A DNA stretch of 44,122 nucleotides from the NCBI GenBank assembly GCA_019913005.1, contig JAIOHL010000087.1, positions 1-44,122 of the forward strand, written 5' to 3'. Origin of the DNA: Anaerolineae bacterium (GTDB lineage: Bacteria > Chloroflexota > Anaerolineae > Aggregatilineales > J027). Made by a program: the position numbers and the translations under genes. The notes beneath the pieces were generated by a model. It saw nothing but the letters and a program-made list of their open reading frames with translations. It was not told where the DNA came from and searched no databases. Every line of letters begins with the position of its first letter. Position 1 is the first letter of the stretch. This document shows positions 1-41,500 of this stretch, one piece after another.

Positions 1-259
1 CTCCTATACCATCGCCAGCCCCACTGGTGAGGGCCTCACCACTTGCCGGAGTTTCTCACGGCTGCGGCGGTGCGCCTTGAAGGATGCCTTCAGGATCACG
101 TAATCTCGTCCAAAAGGCGGATTTTTTTCATATCCCCTATCAAAATCTATTAACCTCTGCTAAAATACACTTAACACTCGTTAAGTTAGTTTTGGCAGTT
201 TTCATTTTCCAAGAAATTTGAGATAAATTTTTCGCAACGCCGTAACTTATTGACACGTA
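1..259. other. Left-edge stretch without a supported gene
   Basis: No convincing gene is seen here. On the minus strand a run of about 52 codons stays open from near position 160 down to a TAG at positions 4-6. Its peptide is rich in Arg and Lys (it includes GRDYVILKASF) and has no ATG. It could be the 3' remnant of a truncated gene, but I do not recognise a family. The right half is AT-rich and probably holds the promoter of the following gene. Confidence 0.3.
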
Positions 260-26210: not shown

Positions 26211-26240
26211 AGTCGGGGTACTGGGATTTGAACCTAGGGC
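26211..26240 (-). other. tRNA 3'-end fragment, candidate attachment site of the element
   Basis: On the minus strand the sequence contains CTAGG-TTCAAAT-CCCAG, a tRNA T-arm with one A-C mismatch and a canonical GTTCAAATC loop, followed by TACCCCGA, an acceptor 3' strand. Upstream there is no D-arm, no matching anticodon arm and no CGGGGTA 5' strand at the proper distance, so this is not a whole tRNA. A terminator follows and an integrase gene lies 195 bp upstream. This is the usual picture of the tRNA 3' end left at one side of an integrated element. The intact tRNA would be expected at the other end, beyond the window. Confidence 0.5.
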
Positions 26241-26379
26241 CTCTTGTTACTTCAGTCCGTTTACCCCACTTGAAGCCCTCTACGTCACGGTCAAACATCC
26301 GGCGAAGGCTTCATAAACTTATTTCAAATGAGAGATTAGTTTTAGTATAGCTATTCTCTTCGAATTGGCAAAATTAAGA

Positions 26380-26426
26380 AATCCAGAGCTTTGAAACCTC
26401 CTTAGGAAGTTTCGCCGCTCTGGATT
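26380..26426 (-). terminator. Stem-loop terminator of the integrase gene
   Basis: AATCCAGAGC (26380-26389) and GCTCTGGATT (26417-26426) form a perfect 10-bp stem around a loop that can itself fold (GAAAC/GTTTC). It lies 9 bp after the integrase stop. T-rich bases follow on both strands (TTTTTG on plus, TTCTTAATTTT on minus), so it may work in both directions. Confidence 0.65.
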
Positions 26427-26434
26427 TTTGTTTT

Positions 26435-27457
26435 CTACTTCTTGAAGCGCTTGCGCTCTTCGGCGAAGGAAACAATTTTCTCCTCGGCAGGTGGATCGCT
26501 CGGGGTTGTTGTCCCCGCGTCGGATCGAGCCGAGGCTAGTGCCAGCCGATCGGTTGCTTCACGCAAGCGGGTCTCATCTTGATTAAAGTAGTTCTCCAAG
26601 GTGATGAGAACACTCGAATGGCCCAACTTACTCTGCACTAACGTAGGCGACATGCCAGCATCAGCCCAAGCCTGACCCACCCGATGGCGAATGGCGTGAG
26701 GCCCCCAACGACGAATCCCGGCCCGCTCACATAGGCGTTTGATCACCTCGCCCACTGTTTCCGCATTGAACGGCCCGTGTTCGCCACGCACCACAAATAG
26801 GTAGGGATGGGAGGTCTCCGGGCGCACTTCAAGATAGTCTCGTATGGCCTCAGCGGTTTCGCTGCCGAACATAACCTTCATATAATGATCCCCTTTTTCA
26901 TGAATCAGGGCCTCACGTTTCTCAAGGTTAATGGTATCCATTCGCAACGAAGCCGCACCACCCGCCCGACATCCCGTATCCGCCAAAAACAGCATCAAGG
27001 CTTTATCTCGATAGCGCAGGAATTCAGAGGTGTTTAAGAGAGCGATATCAATCAATTTCTGCAGATCTTCCGCCGAAATAGCTTTGGATGAAGCCGGAGG
27101 GCGACGATAGTGCCGAACATAAACATTGTCGACTGGCGACTTCACGATCCACCCCTGTCGTACACAGTAATTGAATAAGGCCCGAATCATCTTGAAGTTC
27201 CGCGTGATGGTAGCAGGTGAAAGAGGCTCGTCAACCTCCGGATGATTGGGGTGCCCTTGGTATTTCACTTGGGTGGTACGCATGACATAGATGAAATCCT
27301 CAATTTGAGCCTGCGTGATGGTGTCAACGAAATTCTCTGGGCCGATGGCAGGCACAAATTTACGCCCCAAAAAGGACTCATACGATTTCTGACTATTAGG
27401 CGAACGATCAGTCCGCATGAAACGCAAATAAGCATCAATCAGTTTGATGCGTTCCAT
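26435..27457 (-). CDS. Tyrosine recombinase / integrase
   Basis: A site-specific recombinase of the XerC/D-phage integrase family (340 residues). The N-terminal SAM-like core-binding domain spans about residues 1-100 (YLRFMRTDRSPNSQKSYESFL). The catalytic domain has Arg164 in DTGCRAGGAASLR, a Lys near residue 189, HAIRH (His254, Arg257), LGHSS (His280) and Tyr290 in LENYF. All catalytic residues are present, so it should be active. A charged tail follows (EEKIVSFAEERKRFKK). It faces the tRNA 3' fragment and is taken as the integrase of the element that continues to the right. Confidence 0.95.
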   Translation of the reverse strand: MERIKLIDAYLRFMRTDRSPNSQKSYESFLGRKFVPAIGPENFVDTITQAQIEDFIYVMRTTQVKYQGHPNHPEVDEPLSPATITRNFKMIRALFNYCVRQGWIVKSPVDNVYVRHYRRPPASSKAISAEDLQKLIDIALLNTSEFLRYRDKALMLFLADTGCRAGGAASLRMDTINLEKREALIHEKGDHYMKVMFGSETAEAIRDYLEVRPETSHPYLFVVRGEHGPFNAETVGEVIKRLCERAGIRRWGPHAIRHRVGQAWADAGMSPTLVQSKLGHSSVLITLENYFNQDETRLREATDRLALASARSDAGTTTPSDPPAEEKIVSFAEERKRFKK

Positions 27458-27507
27458 AGGAAACTCCCGTCTAAATTGGTCAAAAGCAGTTGGGTGCTAT
27501 GCGGCGG

Positions 27508-27513
27508 ATTATA
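27508..27513 (-). promoter_or_regulatory. -10 box of the integrase promoter
   Basis: TATAAT on the minus strand, 50 bp before the integrase ATG. The -35 region (TTTCGA, 18 bp upstream) is poor. Confidence 0.35.
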
Positions 27514-27690
27514 CAAGAAAACCGAGCAAGTTCGAAAGAGATGTTGAGTCAGCACTTCCTTTCTGAGATGCACTTGCCACAGGCAAGCGAAATAAACGCG
27601 CCTAAGCGCGAGCGAACCGATACAGACATTCACAGTTTTGGCTCCCTGCAATGTTGATAGGTACAGAGTTTAAACACTAAAGAAGGCTCT

Positions 27691-27822
27691 ATGAATAACA
27701 CGAACAAAAACCTAATTCCACTACGACTACTCAACGCTGGCGAAGCTGAGTTCAACCTTCTATTAATGGGTGCGGTAGCCGAGATCGCCCCACCCCATCG
27801 AGCGAGGCATGGGGTGTTATGA
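27691..27822 (+). CDS. Small leader ORF (43 residues) coupled to the next gene
   Basis: A 43-codon frame starts at ATG 27691 after AGAAGG and ends with TGA inside the ATG of the next gene (ATGA overlap, 4 bp). The peptide begins MNNTNKNLIPLRLLN and shows no known motif. The exact stop-start coupling and the Shine-Dalgarno site argue that it is translated, perhaps as a leader peptide that sets translation of the following gene. It could also be a chance frame. Confidence 0.4.
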   Translation: MNNTNKNLIPLRLLNAGEAEFNLLLMGAVAEIAPPHRARHGVL

Positions 27823-28109
27823 AACCGATGGAGGATTTCAATCAACGGCTCGCGGCAGCCCAAGACTTGCCGCTGGAAACACGCATCAACGCCCTACTGG
27901 AAGTGGTGCGGGCCTATCGTCCGATCCTGATGCTGATGCATGAAACCCTGTATGAGTTGGAACGCGCCATTGATCAACTCCACCCACTCCGGACACGCCT
28001 TGAGTACATGCGTCAGCTGGAAGTGGTCATGCAGCAGTGTGGCTACAGTCGCATTGCGCCTTATCTCGACAAGCTGGATTTTGTTCGCCGCGCTTTGGAT
28101 GAGGAGTAA
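27819..28109 (+). CDS. Conserved-paralogue small protein A (96 residues)
   Basis: Unknown family. The 96 residues are mostly helical and amphipathic, with the core ALLEVVRAYRPILMLMHETL and the end VVMQQCGYSRIAPYLDKL. The same pattern (ALLEVVR, HETL, RxRL, VMQQxGYSR, YL) recurs in the 96-residue protein encoded at 29282-29572, so the two are paralogues within one gene cluster. The composition suggests a helical dimer or a small structural or DNA-associated protein of the element; nothing more can be said. The start is coupled to a preceding small frame. Confidence 0.7.
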   Translation: MKPMEDFNQRLAAAQDLPLETRINALLEVVRAYRPILMLMHETLYELERAIDQLHPLRTRLEYMRQLEVVMQQCGYSRIAPYLDKLDFVRRALDEE

Positions 28110-28266
28110 ATGCCCTAAACCTGAGCGTTCGTTATGTCGGCAACACCAACGATTCATCAGTTTGAATAAAAGAAATCAGTTCTTGAAAAATTTTGTTCCG
28201 AGGGATTAGCCATTGGCGCTTTAAAAAAAGGTCAACCGTTTAATTTTCGATAAAGAAAGGCAGGTC

Positions 28267-28362
28267 ATGATGTGTGAACCCAAGTGTCCAATGCCCCCAC
28301 CCAATCCGGTGCCGGGAACTGGGTCGTGTCCAAAGGAAGGAGATACAGATGACTCTTGCTAA
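28267..28362 (+). CDS. Possible small Cys/Pro-rich peptide gene (31 residues)
   Basis: ATG at 28267 follows GAAAGG at a 6-bp distance. The 31-residue peptide contains four Cys residues and a Pro-rich centre (CEPKCPMPPPNPVPGTG...). Its end overlaps the start of the next gene by 14 bp in another frame. Cys spacing (CxxxC...C...C) could bind a metal. No homologue is known to me, so this is a tentative call. Confidence 0.3.
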   Translation: MMCEPKCPMPPPNPVPGTGSCPKEGDTDDSC

Positions 28363-28705
28363 TGCACTTGTGCCGATGACTCCAGCCATGTTACACGCCA
28401 GCAACCAGTGGTATGCCGCCCAGCAGGAAGCCGCCATGCTGGAACAGACGAAGGCCGTCTTAAATCGCCTCGTCCATCCGTCGAAGCCATTTGTTTATCG
28501 CACGGCAGCCCGTGAATGCCCATCACCGAAGCCTCTGCCGTCCGACGTCACCCTCATTCTGCCGGGCAGTCCGGAGTCGTTTGAAAAGGTACAGGAGCGT
28601 CACATCGCCGCGCTCTTTACCGAGCAGTTTGTTGACCCACTCGATCAAGACCTTTTTGAGCGGGTACAAGCCCGCCGCCAAGCAAGGAGAGCTGCTGCCC
28701 AATGA
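28349..28705 (+). CDS. Unknown element protein (118 residues)
   Basis: Not recognised. The frame is open from 28274, but the very strong AAGGAAGGAG at 28334-28343 points to the ATG at 28349. The N-terminal third is helical (ASNQWYAAQQEAAMLEQTKAVLNRL), a Pro-rich middle follows (CPSPKPLP), and the end is basic (ERVQARRQARRAAAQ), which may mean nucleic-acid contact. The stop overlaps the next start (ATGA), so this gene and the next are translationally coupled. Confidence 0.65.
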   Translation: MTLANALVPMTPAMLHASNQWYAAQQEAAMLEQTKAVLNRLVHPSKPFVYRTAARECPSPKPLPSDVTLILPGSPESFEKVQERHIAALFTEQFVDPLDQDLFERVQARRQARRAAAQ

Positions 28706-29298
28706 ACACCTTAGATGACCATCAGTTAGCCATTGTGGTGGATGACGTGTTTGGTCAACTCGTCGCCGCCCTGCAAACCACGCCTGACGACACGGCCTAT
28801 AACACAGGGATCGCGGCACTGGAGGAATTACAAACGCGCATCTTCCAAGCACTGGACGACGCCAAAGACATCATTCTCGCGGTGGTCGAGCAGCGCAATG
28901 AAGCCGTCGCCACCGCCAACGCCGCACTGGATCGTCAAGCCGAACTCGAAGACGAGTTATCCGAAGTCAGTGTTGACCTCACCACTCTCACCGAAGCGCT
29001 GGAGCATTGGTACATCACCACCGACGAGCGCGTGCGGGATGTGGTTGAGGAAATTACTGAACAATCCACCGAAGAGGCCGAGGTCTACGCGCTGGACTAT
29101 GCCTTTGAAGTCACCAGTGACAACCTCACCAATGCCGTGCGAACCATCACCGGTTGTTCTGGCATCGAAGCGATGCAGGTCGCCGCACTCATCAACGATG
29201 AATTCGAAGGGCCGGTGAATGCCCGCACCCTTGAACTGCTCCAGCAGGTCGTGGCCCATCTGGAAAAAAGTGTGGTGGACGATGCCGAAACCAGTTGA
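28702..29298 (+). CDS. Acidic, coiled-coil-prone unknown protein (198 residues)
   Basis: Not recognised. It is strongly acidic and almost wholly helical, with a likely coiled coil around residues 45-100 (LEELQTRIF...DRQAELEDELSEVSVDLTTLTEAL). A C-terminal helical part contains SGIEAMQVAALINDEFEG. It overlaps the genes on both sides (4 bp before, 17 bp after), so it belongs to a compact operon of small element genes. A scaffold or adaptor role is possible but not shown. Confidence 0.65.
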   Translation: MNTLDDHQLAIVVDDVFGQLVAALQTTPDDTAYNTGIAALEELQTRIFQALDDAKDIILAVVEQRNEAVATANAALDRQAELEDELSEVSVDLTTLTEALEHWYITTDERVRDVVEEITEQSTEEAEVYALDYAFEVTSDNLTNAVRTITGCSGIEAMQVAALINDEFEGPVNARTLELLQQVVAHLEKSVVDDAETS

Positions 29299-29572
29299 AC
29301 ACCTCGACAGGTTGGTCACGGCGGCGTGGGAGCTGCCCGACGACGAGCGTGTAACCGCCCTGCTGGAGGTGGTGCGCCTCTACAGCCCGGTGATTGCCCG
29401 CCTCCATGAAACCCTCCACGAAGCCGAACAAGTCGCCGATCGGATTGTGCAGCCGCGCGTGCGACTCGTGTTGATGAACAAGGTGCTGATGGTCATGCAG
29501 CAGGCGGGGTACAGCCGCGCCGAAAAGTACCTAGTGAAAGTCCAAAAGGAACACCATATACAGGAGTTATGA
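29282..29572 (+). CDS. Conserved-paralogue small protein B (96 residues)
   Basis: The same length and pattern as the protein encoded at 27819-28109: a helical core ALLEVVRLYSPVIARLHETLHEAE, then RVRLVLMNKVLMVMQQAGYSRAEKYL. No known family. I chose the ATG at 29282 because it gives the same N-terminal length as the paralogue; it overlaps the preceding gene by 17 bp. The pair probably arose by duplication within the element. The genes between them are unrelated in sequence. Confidence 0.7.
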   Translation: MPKPVEHLDRLVTAAWELPDDERVTALLEVVRLYSPVIARLHETLHEAEQVADRIVQPRVRLVLMNKVLMVMQQAGYSRAEKYLVKVQKEHHIQEL

Positions 29573-29573
29573 A

Positions 29574-29894
29574 ATGAAACGTTTAGTTGTGCGGTGTGTG
29601 GGCAATGGTGAGATGGTCGTGGTGGAACTGCGCTATCACGCCCTCAAAGATCAGTTGGTATTGGCTGAAATCGTGCCAACTTCAGACCCCATCGTCAAGC
29701 GGCGGGTCAATCATGAAGTGCTGAATCTGGCGGAGTATCCGGAACTCGCTGAGTTATTTGTCATGCCCGTGAATGGCGAGTGTTGGGACATGGAGGCGGT
29801 TGAGGCGTTGGTACTGGGTTATCTCAATCGCCAAAGTGAAGCGCGGGTGCGGCTGCGTGAGGACTGGGCCATTGAATTGGGTCTGGCCGTTTAA
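29574..29894 (+). CDS. Unknown element protein (106 residues)
   Basis: Not recognised. It begins one base after the preceding stop. The N-terminal half alternates beta strands (KRLVVRCVGNGEMVVVELRYHALKDQLVLAEIV), and the second half is helical and acidic (LAEYPELAELF, MEAVEALVLGYLNRQ, LREDWAIELGLAV). It is the last gene of the small-gene operon before parA. Confidence 0.65.
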   Translation: MKRLVVRCVGNGEMVVVELRYHALKDQLVLAEIVPTSDPIVKRRVNHEVLNLAEYPELAELFVMPVNGECWDMEAVEALVLGYLNRQSEARVRLREDWAIELGLAV

Positions 29895-29914
29895 CACAGT
29901 GCCTATAAACGGAA

Positions 29915-29934
29915 AACACGGGAAACCCCGTGTT
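29915..29934 (+). terminator. 8-bp hairpin before parA
   Basis: AACACGGG-AAAC-CCCGTGTT, a perfect 8-bp stem with a 4-nt loop, lies in the 124-bp gap between the small-gene operon and parA. No T-run follows. It could be a weak terminator or a partition-related site. Nothing else is seen in this gap. Confidence 0.35.
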
Positions 29935-30018
29935 CATCCGCATCTAGCAGGGAGCCAGACACCCGCAAGAGTAACACAAAATCAGTCGAAAAATAAGTGG
30001 TGGGGGTTGGGAGAATAG

Positions 30019-30894
30019 GTGGGTTATATGGAAAACATGAAAAACTTGGCATTACCCAAACAGAATGAAGCCATCACGATTGCCGTCGTGCAGGAAAAAG
30101 GTGGCGTGGGCAAAACCACCACTGCCGCGACCGTATCCGCTGGTCTCGCCGCACTGGGCTATGACGTGGCAGGCATTGATACCGATATGCAGGGGCATTT
30201 CATCAGTACCCTGCGGGTGTTTACCAGCGCCGGGTATCCACCGGATCTGCTGTTTGATGTGGTCAGCCGTCGCCGTCCGGTGCATGAGGCCTTGACTCCC
30301 ATCCCACCGGAAAAGATCACACTGGAGATTCCCAGCGACATGACTCCGACTGGCCCACCGGGACGGCTGGATATTCTGTCGGGTTATCTGGATACCACCC
30401 TCATTCCCGGTTGGATACGAGCGCACAACAATAACTGGGAAGCGCTGCGGGAGGTGATTGCTCCCCTACACCAAACACATGACTTCATCATCATTGATAC
30501 CCCGCCCACCAAATCGGAAATGACCCCGGCGATTATCGCGGCCAGCGACTATGCCCTCATCCCCACCCTCCCGGAGGCACTCAGTGTGCGCCAAACCAGC
30601 GACACGCTGGAAAGCATCGCCAATCTGTCGAAGTATGGCGACATTCGACTGCTCGGCATCATCCCGACGATGGTGCGGGACGGGGTGCTGCTGCATGAAG
30701 AAAGCCTCGATGAACTCACCACCGCCTTTGGCGAGTCGGTTTGGAATGAAGCCTATACCAGCCTCTCCATTATTTGGGGTGAGGCCTCAGCCGTTGGCAT
30801 GTCGGTGATGCAATATGCACCGGGGCACAAAGCCGCGTGTCAAGCGTGGCGCATCGTTCACAAAGTTCTGGAATCAGTAGGAGTGAAAGCATAA
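30019..30894 (+). CDS. parA: ParA-family partition ATPase
   Basis: A Walker-type (MinD/ParA) ATPase of 291 residues that would move the element's DNA by ATP-driven gradients on the nucleoid. The deviant Walker A motif KGGVGKTT (residues 27-34) has both lysines. Other motifs are AGIDTDMQGH (A') and FIIIDTPPTKSEM (Walker B), followed by ALIPTLPEALSVRQTSD. No N-terminal HTH is present, as in type Ib or chromosomal-type ParA. GTG at 30019 follows GGGAG; ATG at 30028 is an alternative start. The stop overlaps the ATG of the ParB-like gene by one base. Confidence 0.93.
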   Translation: MGYMENMKNLALPKQNEAITIAVVQEKGGVGKTTTAATVSAGLAALGYDVAGIDTDMQGHFISTLRVFTSAGYPPDLLFDVVSRRRPVHEALTPIPPEKITLEIPSDMTPTGPPGRLDILSGYLDTTLIPGWIRAHNNNWEALREVIAPLHQTHDFIIIDTPPTKSEMTPAIIAASDYALIPTLPEALSVRQTSDTLESIANLSKYGDIRLLGIIPTMVRDGVLLHEESLDELTTAFGESVWNEAYTSLSIIWGEASAVGMSVMQYAPGHKAACQAWRIVHKVLESVGVKA

Positions 30895-32960
30895 TGGGCA
30901 GCAGTTTAGCAGCACGTCGAGCCAAAGCCGGGGCTGGCAGTCATACCGCCATCACCGCCACCGAATCCCTGTCGCGCATGAATGAGCGTCCGCGTGATGT
31001 CCCCCTCAAGGACATCACGTTGGATTGGCGGCTTCAATTTCGGATGGATGTCAAGAAGTCGGGTCTGGATGAAAAACACCTGACGGACTTGATGCACGTT
31101 ATTGCTGACGGGCAGGATACCGAGCCTGTGATTTTGTACCGGGTGGATGGCGACTTATTGATGGCAGATGGTTTTCATCGAATTGAGGCTTATCGCCGTT
31201 CCGAACGCACAACCATCCCGGCGATTGTCCGCGATGGCAGTTATGAAGACGCAGAGGAATGCGCCGAAAACGCCAATCTTCAATATCGCAAACGACTATC
31301 TGATGAGAGTAAAAAATATATTTTTGCTCGGCGCGTGCAACGTGGGTATCTGACGAATGGCATTTCGTGGCTTAACCTCTCGGATAAAGCCATTGCCGCA
31401 CAATTGGGAGTCAGCTATCAAGCTGTCAATGATTGGTTTGAGGAGCTTCAATCAGGTGTCAAGTTCCTGACACCTGACAGTCAAGAAGTTTCTATCCAAG
31501 TATCCGTAGACCGGTCAGTGGTTTATGGACGCGACGGCAAACGCTACGAGGTCGAAGCCATCCGGGAGGCCAATACCAAACGCGCCGCCGAGCTTGCTGA
31601 ACGCCGGGTCGCTGAGGAAGCCGAGCGCAAAAGGAACCTGCCCGCCGTCGAGAAGATTCGCATCGTCACCCAATACCTTCTCGCCAAATACCGGGACGAT
31701 TACGCCAAGAAAAAGAACCCACTCATGGATGACCCCAAGCGCGGTTTTGAATGGTGTTACCAAGTCAGCAACCCGGCCTCGTTTGTGGTGGATATTGACT
31801 GGGAACGTCAATTCCTGCATGAGTACGGCGCGAAACCCATCCATGTCTATCGAGAGTTTTTGCGGTTGGCCGATCGGGAGGTCTTTACCCGTGCGGACAT
31901 GGACGGATGGACGGATATCCAGTTAGAAGACTGGGTGCGTGAGATGGGTCGCCGCCCACCGCGTCAACCCAACACTACGACCTTCCAGCAAACGGGCATG
32001 GCCCAGCCCAAACATCCCGATGCCCCGTATCAACCCTCTCCCGCGACAGGCCGTCATCGCTTGACCGACCCACCCGCCGCGCCGGAAACTGACGAGCCGG
32101 AGCTAGACACCATCCCTGCACCGTGCCCCTTCAAAAAAGGCGACAAGGTGGTCTACCACAACGGACGACCCTACGCGGTACTCGGCGTCAAGTGGGACGG
32201 CCAAACATGGCAGCTGCATGTGCTCAACGAACACGGGTTGGATTTTTATGACAGCGCATCCCAATTTGTGCCTGCCTGCACCTTCAAAACGGGTGACCTG
32301 TTGGTCTTTAAGCCCACCGGGGAGCACTGGCAAGTGGTGGGTGGTCAATGGAATGGTCAGGGTTGGACGCTGGAGGTCACGAATCAAGAAGGCCAACAAC
32401 TCAGCGAGGACGCCTCCTATTTTGAGCTATCCACTGCGGTGGTGGCTGAAGAGCAGGCCGTCGCGCCGTTCCACACCGGAGACATCGTGCGTGATCTTCA
32501 ATCCGGGGAGCTAGTTGAGGTCATCGGCTCTAACTCGGATGGCAGTCTCCGGGTCGAGGGGGATGACGAGGAGGATGAGCCACATCAGTACGAGGGGCGC
32601 GTCGAGGACTTTGCGAAGTACGATACTCACGCTGACCCACCATCGAAGGCTGCCACATCCAATGGCAAACGCCAAGCCGAGATCATGGTCGAGGATGCGC
32701 GATCTATCATGCCGCGCCTGCTCGTCAATACCGCCGACGCCTGTGTGGATTTCCGCATGACCACCCTAGTACGGTGGGAATCCTTTAAGAGCATCCAAAC
32801 CATTTTGGCAAACGGCGACGCAAACGAAATTCACCTGATTGAACGGGATCTGCGCCGTGCCCAAGGCGAGGTCAGTATCGTTGCCACCTTGGTCAACACC
32901 ATCCTCAACAACCTTGATGCCATGCTTGCTGAAATCGAGGGGTGGGCACAACGCGCTTAA
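30894..32960 (+). CDS. parB: ParB-like partition protein with a long C-terminal repeat region
   Basis: A 688-residue protein that follows parA directly (TAATG overlap). The ParB/Srx-like N-domain starts near residue 30 (RPRDVPLKDITLDWRLQFR), contains MADGFHRIEAYRR and AECAENANLQYRKRLSDE, and is followed by an HTH (LSDKAIAAQLGVSYQAVNDWF). After a Lys/Glu/Ala-rich helix come an unusual globular part (residues ~250-360) and then three similar beta-rich units of ~45-50 residues: PCPFKKGDKVVYHNGRPYAV, ACTFKTGDLLVFKPTGEHWQ and VAPFHTGDIVRDLQSGELVE, each starting with F-x-x-G-D. These look like SH3/KOW-type small barrels. Plasmid ParB proteins are usually ~300-350 residues, so this is about twice as long. 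DNA binding and partition are inferred from the first half and from synteny. Confidence 0.83.
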   Translation: MGSSLAARRAKAGAGSHTAITATESLSRMNERPRDVPLKDITLDWRLQFRMDVKKSGLDEKHLTDLMHVIADGQDTEPVILYRVDGDLLMADGFHRIEAYRRSERTTIPAIVRDGSYEDAEECAENANLQYRKRLSDESKKYIFARRVQRGYLTNGISWLNLSDKAIAAQLGVSYQAVNDWFEELQSGVKFLTPDSQEVSIQVSVDRSVVYGRDGKRYEVEAIREANTKRAAELAERRVAEEAERKRNLPAVEKIRIVTQYLLAKYRDDYAKKKNPLMDDPKRGFEWCYQVSNPASFVVDIDWERQFLHEYGAKPIHVYREFLRLADREVFTRADMDGWTDIQLEDWVREMGRRPPRQPNTTTFQQTGMAQPKHPDAPYQPSPATGRHRLTDPPAAPETDEPELDTIPAPCPFKKGDKVVYHNGRPYAVLGVKWDGQTWQLHVLNEHGLDFYDSASQFVPACTFKTGDLLVFKPTGEHWQVVGGQWNGQGWTLEVTNQEGQQLSEDASYFELSTAVVAEEQAVAPFHTGDIVRDLQSGELVEVIGSNSDGSLRVEGDDEEDEPHQYEGRVEDFAKYDTHADPPSKAATSNGKRQAEIMVEDARSIMPRLLVNTADACVDFRMTTLVRWESFKSIQTILANGDANEIHLIERDLRRAQGEVSIVATLVNTILNNLDAMLAEIEGWAQRA
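31452..31477. repeat. Perfect 10-bp inverted repeat inside the parB-like gene
   Basis: TCAGGTGTCA (31452-31461), the 6-bp centre AGTTCC and TGACACCTGA (31468-31477). It lies right after the part encoding the HTH. It could be a centromere-like site (parS), an operator or an RNA hairpin. It is the longest perfect inverted repeat I noticed inside a coding region of the window. Confidence 0.45.
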
Positions 32961-33126
32961 TCGGGTGGGCCAGCTCACGCGGGTGGCCCGGAATGAACGC
33001 CTTGCAATCAAGGGCTTCTGAGGTAGGATGTGCCTCAGACAGACGGGCATGGAAAAGCCCCACTGCGGGAAACAGTAGGGGCTTCAGACAGACGGCTTGA
33101 GGGCCGTCAGAAGTGGATTATAGCAG
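32961..33126 (+). promoter_or_regulatory. Repeat-rich gap before the initiator gene
   Basis: In 166 bp there are a 6-bp inverted repeat GGGCCA/TGGCCC (32967-32989), a 12-bp direct repeat TCAGACAGACGG (33035-33046 and 33084-33095), a hairpin AAGCCCC.ACTG/CAGT.GGGGCTT with one bulged A between the repeats (33055-33084), and a hairpin GACGGC-TTGAGG-GCCGTC (33091-33108). This density suggests a control region: promoter or operator of the initiator, countertranscript-type copy control, a partition site, or a terminator for the par operon. No ORF is seen. Confidence 0.45.
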
Positions 33127-34176
33127 ATGGCTAAAAAATTCGATTGGAGCGCACCGCTCTACTGCAATCCCTACATCGCTGTCGCGGTGGGGGCTGAGGC
33201 AGGGATTGTATACGAGCGTCTGCGCTGGATGATTCAGGACTCCAAAGGTAAAAAGACTGCGTTTGGGTCTATTCGTAAGGACGGACGGCGCTGGGTGGAT
33301 TTCACCTATGCCCAGCTACTCGAATGGTTACCCATCTTCAAAAGCACGAAGGCGCTGCGGGATGTCATCACGAAACTGGAAAAAGCGGGCTTGATCGACT
33401 CCGAAACCTTCCCCAGCGGTAAGTGGTACACCGTTAGCAACCTTGACCCGGCTACCCTGACGAAAATCGTCACCCCTGAGACTGACGAAATTTGTCAGGG
33501 GGATGACGAAAATCGTCAGTCACGAGTGACGAAAAATGACACCCCCCCTGACGAAAATCGTCAGCCCCTTATATATATGGAATCCGAATCAACTTCCGAA
33601 TCAACTTCCGAAGCGGTAGCCGATTCTTTTTCTTCCACCGCCCCGCCCGCTACGCCGCCCGCCATCGAAGAAAAAGAAATTGTTCCTGACTCTCCGGTTT
33701 CAGGTTTAGATCAACGCCTCCTCGATGTCTTCGCCAAATTGGTCGGGGTCTATGGTGGCTCGTCGGAACAAACGAAGGCCGAGTTAGCCGGGGGGTTGCG
33801 GACGATCCTCAAAGATTACCCTGACGCGCAGCCGTCCCATTTCCGGCATTTCAACGAGTACCACCAAGAACAGAATCAAAACCGCAAAACTGGGCCGCGT
33901 TATGCTCTGCCCACCATCAATTACGTGGTCGGCGGCTGGGGGCAGTTTATGCAGTGGTGGGAGTCGCACCGCAACGCCTCGCAATGGGGGTTTATCCCCG
34001 GCACAGATCACTACCTCGGCATGGCGCGTTGGGAGTGGGATGAACTCTCCGACATGGAGTCAGGCGCGATGATTCAGATTCGTGGGCAGTGGGTCTATCG
34101 CAAACAGGCCGATGGTGCGTTTACCGAAGTGCCGTGTGAACAGTGGCCTGATGAATGGAAGCGGGAGAGTGCGTGA
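33127..34176 (+). CDS. Replication-initiator-like protein with iterons inside the gene
   Basis: A 349-residue protein. The first ~115 residues look like a winged-helix DNA-binding domain (YERLRWMIQDSKGKKT, WVDFTYAQLLEWLPIFKSTKALRDVITKLEKAGLI, then a beta wing SGKWYTVSNLD), the style of phage O-like and plasmid initiators. Residues ~111-185 form a hydrophilic, low-complexity linker; its DNA carries five near-palindromic repeats and an AT-rich tract. The C-terminal part (about residues 190-349) is helical and Trp-rich and I do not recognise it. It may recruit helicase, like the C-terminus of lambda O. It follows the par genes and is coupled to an exonuclease gene (TGATG). The initiator role is inferred from the domain layout plus the iterons; a phage-type transcription factor is the alternative. 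Confidence 0.7.
   Translation: MAKKFDWSAPLYCNPYIAVAVGAEAGIVYERLRWMIQDSKGKKTAFGSIRKDGRRWVDFTYAQLLEWLPIFKSTKALRDVITKLEKAGLIDSETFPSGKWYTVSNLDPATLTKIVTPETDEICQGDDENRQSRVTKNDTPPDENRQPLIYMESESTSESTSEAVADSFSSTAPPATPPAIEEKEIVPDSPVSGLDQRLLDVFAKLVGVYGGSSEQTKAELAGGLRTILKDYPDAQPSHFRHFNEYHQEQNQNRKTGPRYALPTINYVVGGWGQFMQWWESHRNASQWGFIPGTDHYLGMARWEWDELSDMESGAMIQIRGQWVYRKQADGAFTEVPCEQWPDEWKRESA
33458..33563. repeat. Five iterons, putative replication origin
   Basis: Five 15-bp units of the type TGACGAAAATCGTCA. Perfect palindromic copies start at 33458, 33504 and 33549; variants are TGACGAAATTTGTCA (33483) and TGACGAAAAATGACA (33527). Start-to-start distances are 25, 21, 23 and 22 bp, about two helical turns. 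The units fall in all three codon phases and encode different peptides (LTKIVT, TDEICQ, DDENRQ, VTKNDT, PDENRQ), so DNA sequence rather than protein sequence is being kept. They would be bound by the initiator encoded by the same gene. Confidence 0.8.
33569..33607. other. AT-rich tract and tandem repeat beside the iterons
   Basis: TTATATATAT (33569-33578) begins 6 bp after the last iteron, the expected place for a duplex-unwinding element. It is followed by two tandem 12-bp copies of CCGAATCAACTT (33584-33607). The tandem repeat is in phase (peptide SESTSEST), so it could reflect protein or DNA. Confidence 0.5.
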
Positions 34177-35075
34177 TGGCTGAATTCAACGGCGTGCCGA
34201 TCTACCAGTGGGATCCTTGGCCCGAACCTTTGGTAACCAAGAGCCAACTCTCCAAGGCTGGATACCAACCCGGCCCGCTGCGTGCCGTCGTCCGGTACTC
34301 GAAAAGTTCAACGGGTGACGGCTTCCTACACCTGTTCTCCCCGGATGAAGGGATTCGTCGGAAGCCACCCACCGAGAAACAGCTCGCAGCACAGGTCAAG
34401 CGCAAAGCGGATGAACTCAAGGCACGTACCTGTACCCGCTGCGGAGCCGTCCAGTATTTCAAGCGCGACCTGAGTGGTGGATGGTGTGAATGTTGCTGGT
34501 TGGCGGTCAAGACAGCGGATGACCGCCATGCGGCCGCAGAGTGGGCCAAGCAAGTGCTCGCGGACGGCTGTGTCATCTTGGACATGGAAACCACTGGGTT
34601 GTACGACGCCGAGCCAGTCGAGATTGCCGTCCTCGACCACACCGGGGCAGTGCTCTTCAACTCGCGGGTGAAGCCACTCCGACCGGGGCGGATAGTGGAG
34701 CGTGACCCGGACACAGGTGTCGCGGCAGTCGATATTCACGGTATCCGGCCTGAGGATTTGGCGAATGCGCCGTCCTTCGGTGAGATTTACCCAGCGCTCT
34801 ATAAGGCACTGCATGGCAAACATGTGGTCGTCTACAATAAGGATTTTGATCTTCCCATTCTGCGGGCCACCTGTGAAGAATGGGAATGTGCAGCGTTTGA
34901 ATTTGAGAAGGCGTCGTGTGTGATGCGGTGGTATACCCAGTTTTGTGGGGACTGGTCGGATTACTGGGGATCCTATCGGTGGCAGCCGCTGCCGGGTGGT
35001 GACCACACGGCGCTCGGTGATGCGCGGGCGACGCTGGTCTTGTTGAAGGAAATGGTAGCGAGTTTGAGTGAGTGA
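34176..35075 (+). CDS. DnaQ-type 3'-5' exonuclease with N-terminal zinc-ribbon region
   Basis: A 299-residue protein. Residues ~1-75 are of unknown fold, then there is a four-Cys zinc-ribbon-like segment (CTRCGAVQYF...GGWCECCW, about residues 86-108). The second half is a DEDDh exonuclease: ILDMETTGLY (Asp/Glu pair), VVYNKDFDLPIL (Asp) and GGDHTALGDAR (His and Asp). All five catalytic residues are present. The frame is open to an ATG at 34155, but the ATG at 34176 overlaps the stop of the initiator gene (TGATG) and has GGGAG upstream. The context suggests a role in replication or DNA processing of the element; a proofreading or RNA-trimming role cannot be separated. Confidence 0.85.
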   Translation: MAEFNGVPIYQWDPWPEPLVTKSQLSKAGYQPGPLRAVVRYSKSSTGDGFLHLFSPDEGIRRKPPTEKQLAAQVKRKADELKARTCTRCGAVQYFKRDLSGGWCECCWLAVKTADDRHAAAEWAKQVLADGCVILDMETTGLYDAEPVEIAVLDHTGAVLFNSRVKPLRPGRIVERDPDTGVAAVDIHGIRPEDLANAPSFGEIYPALYKALHGKHVVVYNKDFDLPILRATCEEWECAAFEFEKASCVMRWYTQFCGDWSDYWGSYRWQPLPGGDHTALGDARATLVLLKEMVASLSE

Positions 35076-35328: not shown

Positions 35329-38202
35329 TCAGCCTTCGCTTCTCTCTGGACAAATAAGAGCACTAGGTTCCAATTGATATGTTTCACGGAAATAGGTGAG
35401 ACTCCCGAGTGAAATTCTTGCACAAGCCTCTGTTACAATATCTTGCCAATGTGTCCGCCACAACCGGGCAGTATTATCTCGGCTTCCCGTAAGTACATAT
35501 TTCCCATCTGGGGAAAATGCTACCCCCATAACCCAGTCGGTATGGCCTGAATAGGTGTGGATCAGCTCTCCAGTTTCAACGCTCCACAGTCGGGCCAGTC
35601 CGTCCATGTCACCGGCAAGGATGTAACGGCCATCTGGGGAAATCTTCACATCAAAGATCCAAGCGTCATGGGTCGCAAATTGGCGAAGTTCTTCCCCAGT
35701 TTCAATGTCCCATAACCGTATTGTGTCTGTGCCGCCCGTTACTAGATACTTTGAATCAGGAGAAAATTCGGCTCCCCATATACCACTGGTGTGCCCGATG
35801 AAACTACGAACCTCTTCTCCCGTTTCCACCTTCCACATGCGTGCGTTACCACCATCACAAACTAATATATACTGGCCGTCGGGCGAATAAGCGACGCACT
35901 TGATGAATTGGTCAGAAACCTCAAAGGTACGAATTTTCTCGCCTGTGCTAATATTCCATAGTCCAGCTGTATTGGATTCAACCGCTAACAAATACTGGCC
36001 GTCGGGCGAGAATCTTAGGCTATTTCCACCATAAAGGATACGACTGTCAAGAGAAAATATCGTATCACCGCGCGGAATGCTCCGTACCTCTACACCCTCT
36101 ACGCCGCCAAGGGCGATATATTGACTATCATCTGAAAAGGCTACGGTGATGAGATCAACGTTGTAGAACGAGCGTACCTCATCTCGACTGTTCGCGTCCC
36201 ATAAGTGTCCAATGGTTGCACCATCTATTGTAAAGATGTATTGCCCATTGGCTGAATATGCGACCCCGGTAATGGCCTCAGTGTCAAACCCAGTGGCAGT
36301 GCTTTTGAACACGTAAGGTTCAGCGAAATTCAATTGCCACACGCGAATTGTCCCCCAAGATGCCGTGAGAATGTACCGACCGTCTGGTGCAAAGATTGCC
36401 GTTGTTACATCAGTGTCATGTTGGAATATCCTAATGGCCTCACCACTGGTAATGTCCCACAGTCTTGCTGTCCGATCAGGGCTACCTGTTAGTACATACT
36501 TGCCATCGGGCGAAAAAGCCACATCTGTAACAAAGCCTTCAATCACATGGTTTCCTGACTCCGAGGCCCGTGTGCTATGCCCGGCAAAAACCATTAGCTC
36601 AGTGCCGATTTGGGCATCCCACAAACGGGCGAGGTTATCCCAGCCTCCACTCAAGACGTAGCGTCCATCTGGAGAGTATGTTGCACTCATGGTGCTTCCT
36701 GAATGCCCAGCTAACGACAGAAGTTCTTGACCCGTCTGGGCATTCCAGATATGAATTCTATCCACATATCCACTGGTTAAAATTCTCCGCCCATCCGGCG
36801 AGAATTGTACATTGTCCAGACAGCCGCTTACGGTGTGTGTAAATGCTAGGATTTCCCTACCATTGCTATTCCATAATCGTGCAATCCCATCACATCCACC
36901 TGTGAGCATAAACTGTCCGTCCGGAGACCAAGCCACAGTACGGACTTCCGCCCCGTGGTATAGCTCTAATAAGTTTTGCCCCGTGTTAATGTCCCACACC
37001 CATCCCGAACTACCACTACTCGTGAGGATAAACAGACTATCGGGCGAGACGGCTATATCAAAGGTGTATGAGGCATGATTGCCAAAACTCTTTATCAGGT
37101 CACCGGTGAGGGCATCCCTCAATACAATAATGCGATCCTCAGTGTTGTTCTCGGCTGCTCTACGTTCTACATAAGCAATGAAGCGGCCATCGGGTGAATA
37201 GGTTATATCGGTGACGGCGTCGGTCTCGTAGAACATCACGGGTAACTGAGAAAATGCCGTCCTTAGGGCCGTGTCGCCCTCTTGGGTATAGGCGGTATTG
37301 AGACTGGCAATCGCAAGTAAGGTTGCCGCCTGCGGATCAGCCAAGTTTACTAACGCAGTATTAGACTGGGCGGCAAATTCGCTCGCCTGAGCCAGAATCG
37401 ATTGATTTTTAGCGATAGCTTCCTGAGTATTCCGAGCAATAGCCTCTTGCTCTGCAATGGTCTGTTGCTCACGTCTACCGCGAAATTGAGTTAGCGCCAC
37501 CCCCAAAAGGATTAAAGCTATCAGTAGGCCGCCAACCACAGCACTAGCGATGCTATTTCGCTGGGTTGTCGCCGCCTTACGGCTCGCTTGGATATATCTA
37601 TAATGCAAAGGCGCTGGCTGTGGATCTTTATCCTTGCTGATTGACAGCCATTTTTCCGCTTGAGTGAGGGTAGCACCACGCAGTGTATCGGCGTGCTTAC
37701 AACCTCTTTGTTCCCAACTCCGGGCACTAACCAGCAGGTTTTTGTGCATACGATTGTGGTCATAATAACGCTCGATAGATTTCAGTAGCGTTTCGTAAGA
37801 AACCTTAAAGTCATCCGTTTCTCGAAAAAAAATCCAGTGGATTTTGTTTAACATTTGCCAAGCTTCAACGGTTATTCCTTCCCAACCTAACTGCACAATG
37901 GTTTCGAGGAATTTATCCGGGTCAACTTCCCGTAGAACGATAGGGATGAGGCGTTTATTGTGTTTTAGAGCATGGTTGATTTCCCAACCACACACTTGCG
38001 ATGATAGAGAGTCGGGACTGATGACTAAAACAAAGTTATCCGCTCCTTCAATTCCGTCGTAAATCTCTTTCAGCCATTCGGTTGTAGGGGGAATGTCTTT
38101 GAGGTCAATCCAAACTTCTTTTTTACTCGCTTTGAGCTTGGTCAACAGTTGCTGAACAAACGCCATATCTCGACGAGAATAGGAAATAAACACATCAGTC
38201 AT
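35329..38202 (-). CDS. TIR - transmembrane - WD40 repeat protein
   Basis: A 957-residue protein. The N-terminal TIR domain (residues 1-~140) has VFISYSRRD, the VWIDLKDIPP loop and the NADase-type helix SQVCGWEINHAL with the putative catalytic Glu74. A linker (~140-215) leads to one membrane helix (about 217-239, SAVVGGLLIALILLGVAL) and a Gln/Glu/Ala-rich helical stretch (~243-310). The rest consists of WD40 units of the type FSPDGKYVLTGSRDNTARLW. I count 14, enough for two seven-blade propellers. AAGGAGGG precedes the ATG. With the TIR before the single helix and the propellers after it, the two parts lie on opposite sides of the membrane. By analogy with bacterial TIR proteins it may cleave NAD+ once the propeller part senses a target; that is inferred. 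It lies downstream of the DUF4062-NTPase gene. Confidence 0.92.
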   Translation of the reverse strand: MTDVFISYSRRDMAFVQQLLTKLKASKKEVWIDLKDIPPTTEWLKEIYDGIEGADNFVLVISPDSLSSQVCGWEINHALKHNKRLIPIVLREVDPDKFLETIVQLGWEGITVEAWQMLNKIHWIFFRETDDFKVSYETLLKSIERYYDHNRMHKNLLVSARSWEQRGCKHADTLRGATLTQAEKWLSISKDKDPQPAPLHYRYIQASRKAATTQRNSIASAVVGGLLIALILLGVALTQFRGRREQQTIAEQEAIARNTQEAIAKNQSILAQASEFAAQSNTALVNLADPQAATLLAIASLNTAYTQEGDTALRTAFSQLPVMFYETDAVTDITYSPDGRFIAYVERRAAENNTEDRIIVLRDALTGDLIKSFGNHASYTFDIAVSPDSLFILTSSGSSGWVWDINTGQNLLELYHGAEVRTVAWSPDGQFMLTGGCDGIARLWNSNGREILAFTHTVSGCLDNVQFSPDGRRILTSGYVDRIHIWNAQTGQELLSLAGHSGSTMSATYSPDGRYVLSGGWDNLARLWDAQIGTELMVFAGHSTRASESGNHVIEGFVTDVAFSPDGKYVLTGSPDRTARLWDITSGEAIRIFQHDTDVTTAIFAPDGRYILTASWGTIRVWQLNFAEPYVFKSTATGFDTEAITGVAYSANGQYIFTIDGATIGHLWDANSRDEVRSFYNVDLITVAFSDDSQYIALGGVEGVEVRSIPRGDTIFSLDSRILYGGNSLRFSPDGQYLLAVESNTAGLWNISTGEKIRTFEVSDQFIKCVAYSPDGQYILVCDGGNARMWKVETGEEVRSFIGHTSGIWGAEFSPDSKYLVTGGTDTIRLWDIETGEELRQFATHDAWIFDVKISPDGRYILAGDMDGLARLWSVETGELIHTYSGHTDWVMGVAFSPDGKYVLTGSRDNTARLWRTHWQDIVTEACARISLGSLTYFRETYQLEPSALICPERSEG

Positions 38203-38593: not shown

Positions 38594-41500
38594 CTATAAG
38601 TCACGGATCTGATCAATCCAATCCGGATCAGGTACGGCCTTTAACAGGTCTTCTAGACGAATGGTGTCAACCCCATTCGCCTTCTCAACTTTAATCCATT
38701 CTGTAAGCAAGCCACGTTTTTGCCGTTGAATATTTCGCTGTTGAACCCGATACAAGCCTTTTTGGGCACGTTGTTCAGCCTCGTCAAGAAGAGCGACGGC
38801 TTCTTGGTACCGAGTCATTCGCTGCAATACTTGGGCCATGAACATGTGACTGTTGAGAATGCCATAAGCATCATCAATTATTTCATAGAGAGCAAGCAAT
38901 TCTTTAGTCAACCACAACGCGGTTTCGTCGTCATCTCCTCCCTGAAGACATGCGAAGAAAGCGTTTTGATAAACTGCAATTTGGCCCATTAAAGATTGAA
39001 ATTTCCAAGATCGACTCTGTAATTTTTCAGCCTTTGTTTCCATCTCTTGTAGAACCCCAAGGGCTTTTGGTATATCTCCTCGATCAAACAGATCCAAGGC
39101 TTGATCACGCATGCTTTCCAGCACAAGCGATTCAGCTTTGTCCAAGCCCCTTTGGAAATCCATTTCCAATAGCAGCTTAGATAGATGGGTCTCGCATCCC
39201 CCTAGGTATTCTGCCAACTCATCTCGATAGGGTGAAAAACGTTCAGCCGCTTGGGAGAAACACCGTGCTGCCATTTCGAGATCACCACTCGCCTCATAGC
39301 CGAACCCCTGCACCCATAGGGCAAATCCCAGCCCATCTTCACGTGTTTCGGGCCACATCTCCAGCGCGAGACGCTGATAACGCTCGGACTTTTGGGCAAC
39401 AGACAGCGCACCCAACCAGTCCTGTTTTTGAAACAAAAATGATGCCTGATTTTGAATTAATAAGGCGAGTATTCCAAAGTCACTGGTCTCGAACCAAGGG
39501 TGACTTTCATATCTAGAAATGATTTGTTCCATCAAGCGCGTCAGCTCATCCGCACGGGCAGGATTCCGGTTAGGATAGTCAAGGTCGGTCATCTTTTGGT
39601 GCATGCGCGTAGCCTGACGAATCATCCTCAGTTCCGCATGCAGAATACCTGCTTCACGGTAGATGTCTGCGGCGCGATTGAAGCTATCAAAGGCGGTTTC
39701 GCAGTCTTCCGCTTGTCCTTGTAGGTAACCTTGTAGTTCAAAAAGCGATCCGCGAAGTTGGGTGTACATACCCCACTCGGAAGACTCCTCTAATATGTCT
39801 GCATACTTTTGGACCCGATTCAGAATTGAATTGGCTTGCTCGACTTGTCCTAGTCGTATGGCTTGATGCGCTTTAGGGAATGCACGTTTCGTCTCATAGA
39901 CCGCGTGTCTAGCCCTAGCGAGTTTTTGACTAATAAGTGGGATGTCTTGAGCATAATCTGTGTTCGCCACAGCCTGAATCGCTCTATGTTTCATAAGGGT
40001 CAAAACATACAATTGACCTTCTAATGATTTAATCCAGTGCTGAATGGACAAGGGAGTGGGGGTGGTTTTTTGTTGTTGGTAAAGTTTTTCCAGATCAGCA
40101 AAATAAACAAGTGCCGCTTGATAGCCCTCCTTGCTGAACCGAAACCGTTTGCTATAGCGGCCAACTTGTAGGCTTCCTAATACATCGTAGATCCTCGCCA
40201 GCGATTCAATTGACCCATTGGTGAAACAAGCGTGCGCTAGTTGCCGGATATTCGGCTCGCCCTCAATAAAAGCTTCGCCCCCCAGTGCCGCTCCAGTACG
40301 GACAAGGGCCACATAACTTTCTACATATTGGCTCGACGATTGTAGCATTTTTGCCACCTCAACGGCCCGCGTATAGACTGGGACAATCTTTTTTTCATGT
40401 AGCCTCTCAAGCGCTCGCCCCAAGCCCATCAAGGCTTCCCACTGTGCTTTAAGGGCCTCCACCTCTTGCACATCTTCCAGAAGGGACAAGGCGGTATGAA
40501 AGTCTTTCCGAGCCTCATTCCAACGTTTTAACTCTAGATACAAGCTTCCTCTTCTAACAAGCGCCGCTGCATAGTGTGGTCGAGCATTGGCCCGCCGAAA
40601 AGACTCCAAAGCATCCGAGTTAAACTTCAATGCCGCAGTGGTTTCATCCATAATGTATAGAATGGTACCGATGGCATTGCAGGCACTCCCATGGCTTAAC
40701 TGATGATCTTGAGAACCACCAAATAGAGAGACGGCTCCTCCCTCAATACGTTCTTGCTCCTGCAAATTCATGAGGGCGTGCATAAAATCGCCAACAGCTA
40801 ATGCGGTCACCCCAATATTCCCAAAAGTCGTGGACAACCAAAGCGGATCCCCCTTTTGTTGGCAATAGCGTAATTTTTCGTTAAAGGCACGCATGGCATC
40901 AGCGTACTGCCCCTTGTTCAGATAGGTAAGCCCCAATTCATTGAGTATCGGAATGAGCCGATAGTAGTTCTGTTCTTGTCGCAGGTTTTTTTCCTGACGG
41001 CTCCGCAGCAGTTGAGCCTCGCTGACATGTCCGAGTTCTGCCAGTAGAAGCCCAACGTCATCGGCGACACTCTTAAAATCTCGATCTGACCCGATATGTC
41101 CATATTTTTCGGGTTCATCAATGATGGCACGATATGCATCGCTCATTCGATAGGAGGAGTGATCTTCAAGGTTTTTCCAGATGGTCTTGACCAGCAGCCT
41201 ATCCGTAAGCCATGTTAACGAGAAGTTTTGGGGTACGGCGATCCAATCGTAAAGGGCATCCCACGCCTCGAGTTTGGTGTAAAGGTGCGGCAGCTCGATG
41301 ACCTGACGTTCATCAAGGGGGCGACGGGCAAAAAATTCCGCGAGGCCTTGATAGGCGGACTGTTGTTCGCTCAGTTGAGGAAGATAGCGATCTTGGATCG
41401 CCTGAAACAAGTCCGAATAAGCGAGGGTATATAATCCGCCGCGGTTGACAAGCATTTCACGTAGCGCAGCAAAAAATGGCGACCAGACGATGCTGGTGGG

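Follow-up and report, generated by a model that had tools for sequence, protein, structure and literature searches.

Does the rep gene of an integrated Chloroflexota element carry, within its own coding sequence, the origin at which its product would act? The question is raised by a stretch of 44,122 nucleotides (the window; contig C342 of an Anaerolineae genome of 7.6 Mb in 365 contigs), in which an earlier note had described a lambda-O-like layout with an origin inside an initiator gene. From comparison of sequences, we put at roughly 0.87 the probability that rep (33127-34176) encodes the initiator of an integrative element and that 33451-33630, within its linker-coding part, is the origin.

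The integrated element and the repeats within rep

Up to 26,246 the window consists of chromosome, and from there on of an integrated element. Neither exact att repeats nor a tRNA were found within the window, and attL was located by comparison with relatives, as homology to the empty sites in genomes G003 and G004 stops at 26246. An intact tRNA-Pro(GGG) is present at the empty sites and at a putative attR (G000:C3:12354-12429); at the latter, the sequence again matches the G003 chromosome (93% over 7.5 kb). The element probably runs from 26211 through the contig end to G000:C3:12388, a span of at least 30 kb, provided that the two contigs are parts of a single insertion at tRNA-Pro. Its main features in the window are as follows.

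26211..26246, minus strand: attL, a 36-bp copy of the tRNA-Pro(GGG) 3' end; left end of the element
26435..27457, minus strand: tyrosine recombinase (integrase); Pfam PF00589, E 5.3e-29; phrog_1 integrase
30019..30894, plus strand: ParA-type partition ATPase; Pfam AAA_31, 3.3e-23; phrog_164, 4e-38
30927..32960, plus strand: ParB-like protein; phrog_1033, 9.1e-14; TIGR00180, 1.4e-4, under its cut-off
33127..34176, plus strand: rep, 349-aa predicted winged-helix replication initiator with a putative origin inside
33169..33435, plus strand: winged-helix-coding part, residues 15-103; AlphaFold2 model, pLDDT 46-74 by block
33712..34173, plus strand: C-terminal-domain-coding part, residues 196-349; domain modelled alone, pLDDT 89
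34176..35075, plus strand: DEDDh exonuclease, adjoining rep; Pfam RNase_T, 1.5e-9

Family matches agree with the earlier placing of parA and parB beside the initiator gene; the start codon of the ParB-like gene was picked by eye (its longest open reading frame begins at 30837). The exonuclease is a conserved neighbour of rep, with an 82% identical gene in L010 and a 75% identical one in L016. The latter belongs to a second element in the same genome (C310; L016:4243-6071, minus strand), which carries, at the contig end, a truncated rep with a repeat unlike that of the window (TTGCAAATGGAAATGCAA type), and a DndC-like gene (PADLOC, 2.9e-40). Also adjoining the window's replication module are two minus-strand genes for a TIR-WD40 protein (35329-38202) and a DUF4062-NACHT-TPR protein (38594-43048), which resemble defence cargo.

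An AlphaFold2 model of Rep, built on 3 sequences, predicts a winged helix at about residues 15-103, a disordered stretch at 106-191 and then a C-terminal domain in which beta-strands come after helices. Searches against Pfam and NCBIfam models gave no match. Among PHROGs it matched phrog_11233 (replication initiation protein; 5.1e-8), phrog_6493 (DnaD-like loader; 9.6e-6, residues 10-257), phrog_428 (replication initiation; 3.7e-5) and, weakly, the O-like phrog_678 (0.004). A fold search with the N-terminal domain ranked RepA N-domains first (4pql, Z 10.8, rmsd 4.5, 107 aligned; 4pt7, Z 10.4, rmsd 2.7, 97 aligned; 5kbj, Z 9.8; 4pta, Z 9.6), ahead of CAP at Z 8.5 as the first non-RepA row, a modest margin at middling model confidence; the list contains many CRP rows, and Foldseek gave an E of only 6e-3. 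For the C-terminal domain the fold search returned no structural match and nothing above Z 6.5, the best VIA row being Rubisco activase (Z 6.5), with a lambda P loader row at 5.8.

Five 15-bp semi-palindromes lie at 33458-33563, at spacings of 25, 21, 23 and 22 bp, in the linker-coding part of rep, and they are encoded exactly within the predicted disordered stretch. These iterons and the features around them are listed here, none of them being assigned a strand.

33458..33472: iteron 1, TGACGAAAATCGTCA
33483..33497: iteron 2, TGACGAAATTTGTCA; 6/7 pairs
33504..33518: iteron 3, TGACGAAAATCGTCA
33527..33541: iteron 4, TGACGAAAAATGACA; right half degenerate, 3/7 pairs only
33549..33563: iteron 5, TGACGAAAATCGTCA
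33553..33602: least stable 50-mer of rep, containing TTATATATAT; candidate unwinding site
33583..33606: tandem pair of 12-mers, TCCGAATCAACT, directly past the AT tract; same in L008 (family D7)
33451..33630: DNA-constrained stretch, codons 109-168; candidate origin

Coordinates and shuffles thus bear out the original description of five 15-bp near-palindromes, 21-25 bp apart, in the linker part of a winged-helix gene, with corrections of detail. The three copies called perfect (iterons 1, 3 and 5) are identical, with perfect 6-bp arms around AAA (6/7 pairs). The copies had been assigned to all three codon phases; their codon offsets in the window rep (1, 2, 2, 1, 2) give two, and copies in three phases occur in the arrays of some relatives. 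The AT tract said to begin 6 bp past the last copy is present as TTATATATAT at 33569-33578, but the gap is 5 bp, the tract is only 10 bp long, and it is broken in two of the four homologues, L005 and L008 (CCTATAGATA). The tandem 12-mers sit in the stretch with frozen synonymous sites and possibly belong to the unwinding region. No DnaA box with one mismatch or fewer was found across 32.9-34.3 kb.

Such repeats could be a product of chance, or a peptide repeat mirrored in the DNA, as the sharing of one codon phase by copies 2, 3 and 5 might suggest. The best 15-mer family within 150 bp of rep had 5 members; only one of 300 protein-keeping shuffles reached 4 and none reached 5, and the maximum in 300 codon-order shuffles was 2. 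Because the protein-keeping shuffles never reach 5, a chance origin is excluded. The peptide at the copies varies with phase, and synonymous sites are frozen (see below). We therefore rejected both forms of this explanation, whose probability is negligible, and agree with the earlier note that the repeated feature is DNA and not peptide.

Constraint on the repeat block as DNA

A single-protein search found close Rep homologues in four of the five genomes of the genus, the source genome included, and none in the remaining 149 genomes of the order (154 in all); none were present in 399 further genomes drawn from the phylum. Relatives were likewise absent from the phage and plasmid collections and, by single-protein search, from viral contigs. 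Two public homologues lie on Chloroflexi MAG contigs (JABFGB010000028.1 and JACRBG010000055.1), which fits the Chloroflexota-like character previously given to the element.

All four close genes carry the five iterons at equal spacing, except for one L005 spacer that is 3 bp shorter, and the degenerate variant at iteron 4 is identical in all four. Across codons 111-146, same-residue codons differed from those of the window at 1/32 (L005), 1/27 (L004) and 1/28 (L008) positions, versus 30/90, 36/91 and 39/89 in the winged helix (Fisher, 3.2e-4, 2.5e-4 and 2.7e-5, respectively). Five 12-codon windows covering codons 109-168 held 13 synonymous differences in 258, as against 0.21-1.00 in other rep windows, and the constraint extends past iteron 5 to cover the AT tract and the two TCCGAATCAACT copies. 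Within the block, variable columns were fewer in iterons (7/75) than in spacers (13/31; Fisher, 2.4e-4), and amino acids changed more readily than silent sites. The check that had been proposed, whether the block is conserved as DNA while the linker peptide varies, thus came out in favour, with 77% amino acid identity beside nearly fixed silent sites. Recent exchange alone would not leave the spacers more variable than the iterons, and on these alignments the repeat block is under constraint as DNA and not merely recently exchanged. Nine copies of the exact repeat are present across the five genus genomes, each in a rep gene (9/9), with none in G003, a genome without a window-type rep; one-mismatch copies (n = 8, five genomes) were divided between rep genes (4) and other places (4).

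The same data bear on whether the block is a former origin, now a relic, in an element that has become a permanent resident, copied solely along with the chromosome. Integration in this genome and a cargo that includes TIR-WD40 and NACHT-like genes would suit a resident; however, synonymous constraint persists in four homologues whose reading frames are open, and decay would have kept neither. We regard a relic as unlikely, and a working origin within rep as the better account of the constraint.

Putative initiators and arrays that change together

A profile search recovered a second type of Rep, about 419 aa long and present once per genome in 5/5 genomes of the genus (the core type), as well as distant winged-helix relatives in G047, G095 and G385. 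Of a set of eight remoter winged-helix relatives, with 23-30% identity in the aligned parts, seven are intact and carry linker arrays of 5-8 palindromes or repeats other than those of the window. The core-type motif is approximately CCCATCGAGTGG, partly palindromic in form, with copies 21-23 bp apart, and the linker arrays of G047 (GGACAAAATCTGTC), G095 (TGGCCAAAATGGCCA) and G385 (CTCGTCAAGTTGACGAG) are built from quite different palindromes, that of G047 being partly a DNA duplication that repeats the peptide too. Codons 133-192 of the core gene showed synonymous change of 0/100, 9/77, 5/76, 12/68 and 0/73 per window, and the rest of the gene mostly 0.17-0.46; low values also occur in two windows at either end of the gene and in one linker window (205-216).

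We scanned these genes for chains of phased 13-mers spaced 19-27 bp. Chains of 5-8 were detected in 12/12 full-length genes: 5, 6, 5 and 5 in the window type, 5, 6, 5, 8 and 6 in the core type (orthologues, counted as one independent case), and 6, 5 and 6 in G047, G095 and G385. The maximum among 90 non-rep control ORFs was 4 (94 ORFs, less four rep orthologues with chains of 8, 6, 6 and 5, the sole ones reaching 5). As positive controls, all four iterons annotated in lambda were recovered by the scanner, as was an array of 5 copies in pLS32 repN. Homologues lacking a repeat block had been named as the finding that would speak against an origin; the full-length homologues examined all keep arrays (4/4 close, 5/5 core, 3/3 distant), and those without one are C216 (chain of 3), truncated at a contig end, and the linker-less proteins of 163-171 aa in G433 (chain of 2) and G255 (chain of 3). 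The rep fragment of C310 gave a chain of 4, equal to the control maximum, and a 141-base C-terminal fragment (G000:C114) was left out of the scan. The relatives at G433:C10:234194 (L103) and G255:C23:439481 (L104) are stand-alone winged-helix proteins from genomes of a different family within the phylum; upstream of each gene, a small helix-turn-helix-like ORF was noted by eye.

Exchange of the whole gene is seen in a sister element (G001:C3), which is 90% identical to the window at 26211-32065, 92% at 32957-33122 and 90% at 34161-35067. Integrase, ParA and half of ParB, from its start, fall within the stretch of about 90% identity. In place of rep, the region separating the last two blocks has other genes, among them the following.

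L120:4939-6225 (G001:C3), minus strand: initiator-like gene in the rep slot, 428 aa, starting with DnaA domain I, unrelated to Rep

DnaA domain I was matched above cut-off (PF11638, 1.4e-8). The gene has five 17-bp palindromes of its own, at gene positions 706, 748, 804, 835 and 877, followed by CCCCTATATA. They are irregularly spaced (42, 56, 31, 42) and escaped the phased scanner (chain of 3); five 17-bp copies within 220 bp occurred in 0/45 control ORFs and in 1/200 synonymous shuffles. We read the alignment as one self-contained initiator-plus-origin having been swapped for another. A natural swap by an unrelated gene in an otherwise matching element would show the use of the layout, in which protein and site are inseparable. 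No matching description of DnaA-domain-I initiators in plasmids or prophages was found in the open-licence literature.

The sister element also bears on a different function for the palindromes, as parS, the centromere sites bound by the neighbouring ParB and embedded in rep. The ParB gene adjoins rep, and parS sites are palindromic and clustered. A parS array directly after repA is described for mycobacteriophages in excerpts of PMC7157519. The array nevertheless tracks Rep and not Par: the four elements that have it share ParA at only about 29-33% and ParB at 28-30% (main alignments), and the sister element, although its identity of about 90% takes in ParA and half of ParB, is without the repeat, all G001 copies being at C28. 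An element that keeps its Par genes and loses the repeats argues against parS, and we rejected this very improbable reading in favour of an origin belonging to Rep.

Equally improbable, in our estimate, is a purely regulatory role, in which the repeats would serve Rep or another regulator as operators inside the gene for the control of transcription, with no origin involved. Winged-helix domains are common in repressors, CRP rows abound in the fold list, and initiators often repress their own genes; against this, the five phased copies sit downstream of the gene start, 330 bp into the coding sequence, the array has been swapped together with the whole initiator gene, and the family matches are replication initiators. 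The characterised look-alikes are also origins, as described in parts of PMC5703833 and PMC7466680. Autoregulation may be a second role of the iterons.

The lambda-O-like layout first proposed, with the origin inside the initiator gene, is well supported by constraint at the DNA level, by differing arrays at the same place, that is, co-variation of array and protein, and by gene replacement in the sister element. On such an arrangement, dimers of the Rep winged helix would bind the iterons, a dimer on each of the five palindromes, all on one DNA face because the palindromes are about two helical turns apart. Bound Rep would bend the DNA and open, by melting, the less stable stretch immediately downstream, and its C-terminal domain would then recruit the host helicase/primase machinery to replicate the excised form, with ParA/ParB segregating the excised circle. 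Initiator and origin would move and swap as one cassette because the origin lies in the gene. The comparison provides assay-independent evidence for an origin hidden in coding sequence, and frozen synonymous sites together with phased linker palindromes offer a signature for finding origins missed by family models.

The core paralogue may extend this arrangement beyond mobile elements.

G004:C19:123112-124371 (L036:9113-10372): core Rep paralogue; orthologues on G000:C173, G001:C33, G002:C38 and G003:C57

Core Rep, ParA and ParB are adjacent in four of the five genomes, with core ParA 96-99% identical; in G000, the core rep lies at a contig end next to a transposase-like ORF, and contig C164 carries the ParA gene (98% identical). 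GC skew on G004:C19 (387 kb) reaches its minimum at 119,285, with core rep at 123,112; on G003:C57 (218 kb) the two lie at 69,251 and 58,454-59,713. The dnaA contig G004:C8 has a separate minimum at 59,043, with dnaA at 62,148, and DnaA was found in 5/5 genomes of the genus. Third-position GC-skew minima (C19, 110,716; C57, 75,809) are 12-17 kb off rep, farther than those of plain GC skew. We rejected TA skew as an origin marker: on C19 and C57 it is lowest close to rep, but on C8 the minimum falls at 194,090, versus dnaA at 62,148. A piecewise scan, which a gene spanning a joint could escape, found no tRNA on C19 or C57 and three on C8, and a search for ParS-like consensus sites around the core locus gave nothing convincing. 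This suggests that core Rep starts a second replicon, from a weak skew on two orthologous, non-independent contigs of draft assemblies. Excerpts of a study of Ktedonobacteria place parA near the GC-skew extremum of large, chromid-like second replicons, similar to the core paralogue here, and those excerpts report neither a canonical Rep by Pfam nor parB there (PMC13289182), unlike the Pfam-invisible Rep, ParA and ParB of this genus. The core paralogue is thus a concrete candidate initiator of a second large replicon in the Chloroflexota, a phylum whose chromid-like replicons had no recognisable Rep in those excerpts (PMC13289182). More broadly, and with slightly less than even confidence, we propose that one genus of the Chloroflexota uses winged-helix initiators, invisible to Pfam and with in-gene origins, for its mobile elements as well as for a conserved second chromosome or chromid (with the core paralogue as origin). 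The replication modules of the mobile elements would evolve by exchange of the initiator-plus-origin gene as a whole, and the incoming initiator may even be an unrelated one, with DnaA domain I (helicase-recruiting) and its own in-gene iterons.

Comparison with known initiators

Lambda O shares with Rep the order of binding domain, linker iterons and C-terminal domain, with a candidate AT tract after the iterons here as in lambda, as well as a comparable iteron spacing (20, 24 and 23 in the lambda annotation; 25, 21, 23 and 22 here), and its mode of action, as given in excerpts of PMC7466680, is the one presumed for Rep. Membership of Phage_rep_O was rejected: PF04492 did not match Rep (lambda O control, 5.7e-36) and the hhalign probability was 0.1%, in line with the earlier view that Rep is no obvious O homologue. 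In the element, moreover, an exonuclease and no P-like loader lies downstream of rep, and the AT tract is weaker than in lambda.

RepA_N proteins are likewise built of an N-terminal winged helix, an origin-encoded linker and a C-terminal domain, with semi-palindromic iterons in the gene. According to excerpts of PMC5703833, the N-domain binds boxes within rep, the C-domain is host-specific, and exchange of N-domain plus origin has been described for pPR9; in pSK41 Rep and pLS32 RepN the semi-palindromic iterons converge on an A tract (PMC5703833 and PMC7145576, in part). Our scanner found the array of pLS32 repN to consist of 5 copies at 23-24 bp, and RepA N-domains come first by fold (Z 9.6-10.8). 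RepA_N differs in sequence: PF06970 gave no match at E 10 in six Rep family members (control pLS32 RepN, 7.7e-14), and the hhalign probability against Rep was 5.7%. The C-terminal domain of Rep, with its beta-strands past the helices, is without structural match, and Rep belongs to an integrative element of the Chloroflexota; the RepA_N census excerpted from PMC7145576 placed 723 of 742 proteins in Firmicutes or their phages. No description of RepA_N initiators or of integrative replicons of this kind in Chloroflexota was found in the open-licence literature.

RepA of the PLE satellites of Vibrio phages was assigned to RepA_N structurally, without sequence similarity, and the PLE origin is noncoding and outside the gene (both from excerpts of PMC7145576). 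PLE is an integrated element too, and 4ro3 appears in the fold rows of Rep (Z 7.8, rmsd 3.4, 97 aligned), but the candidate origin of the window is within the gene. On the predicted structure, fold sets Rep nearer to RepA_N than to lambda O, and sequence models join it to neither; we therefore call it RepA_N-like, a family of its own and not a member of RepA_N. Of the new family of self-contained replicons first supposed, what stands is that Rep lies outside the RepA_N and O models; the kind was already known, as RepA_N genes have in-gene iterons (PMC5703833, in part). The layout is thus one known from other phages and plasmids, and the protein itself escapes the usual family models.
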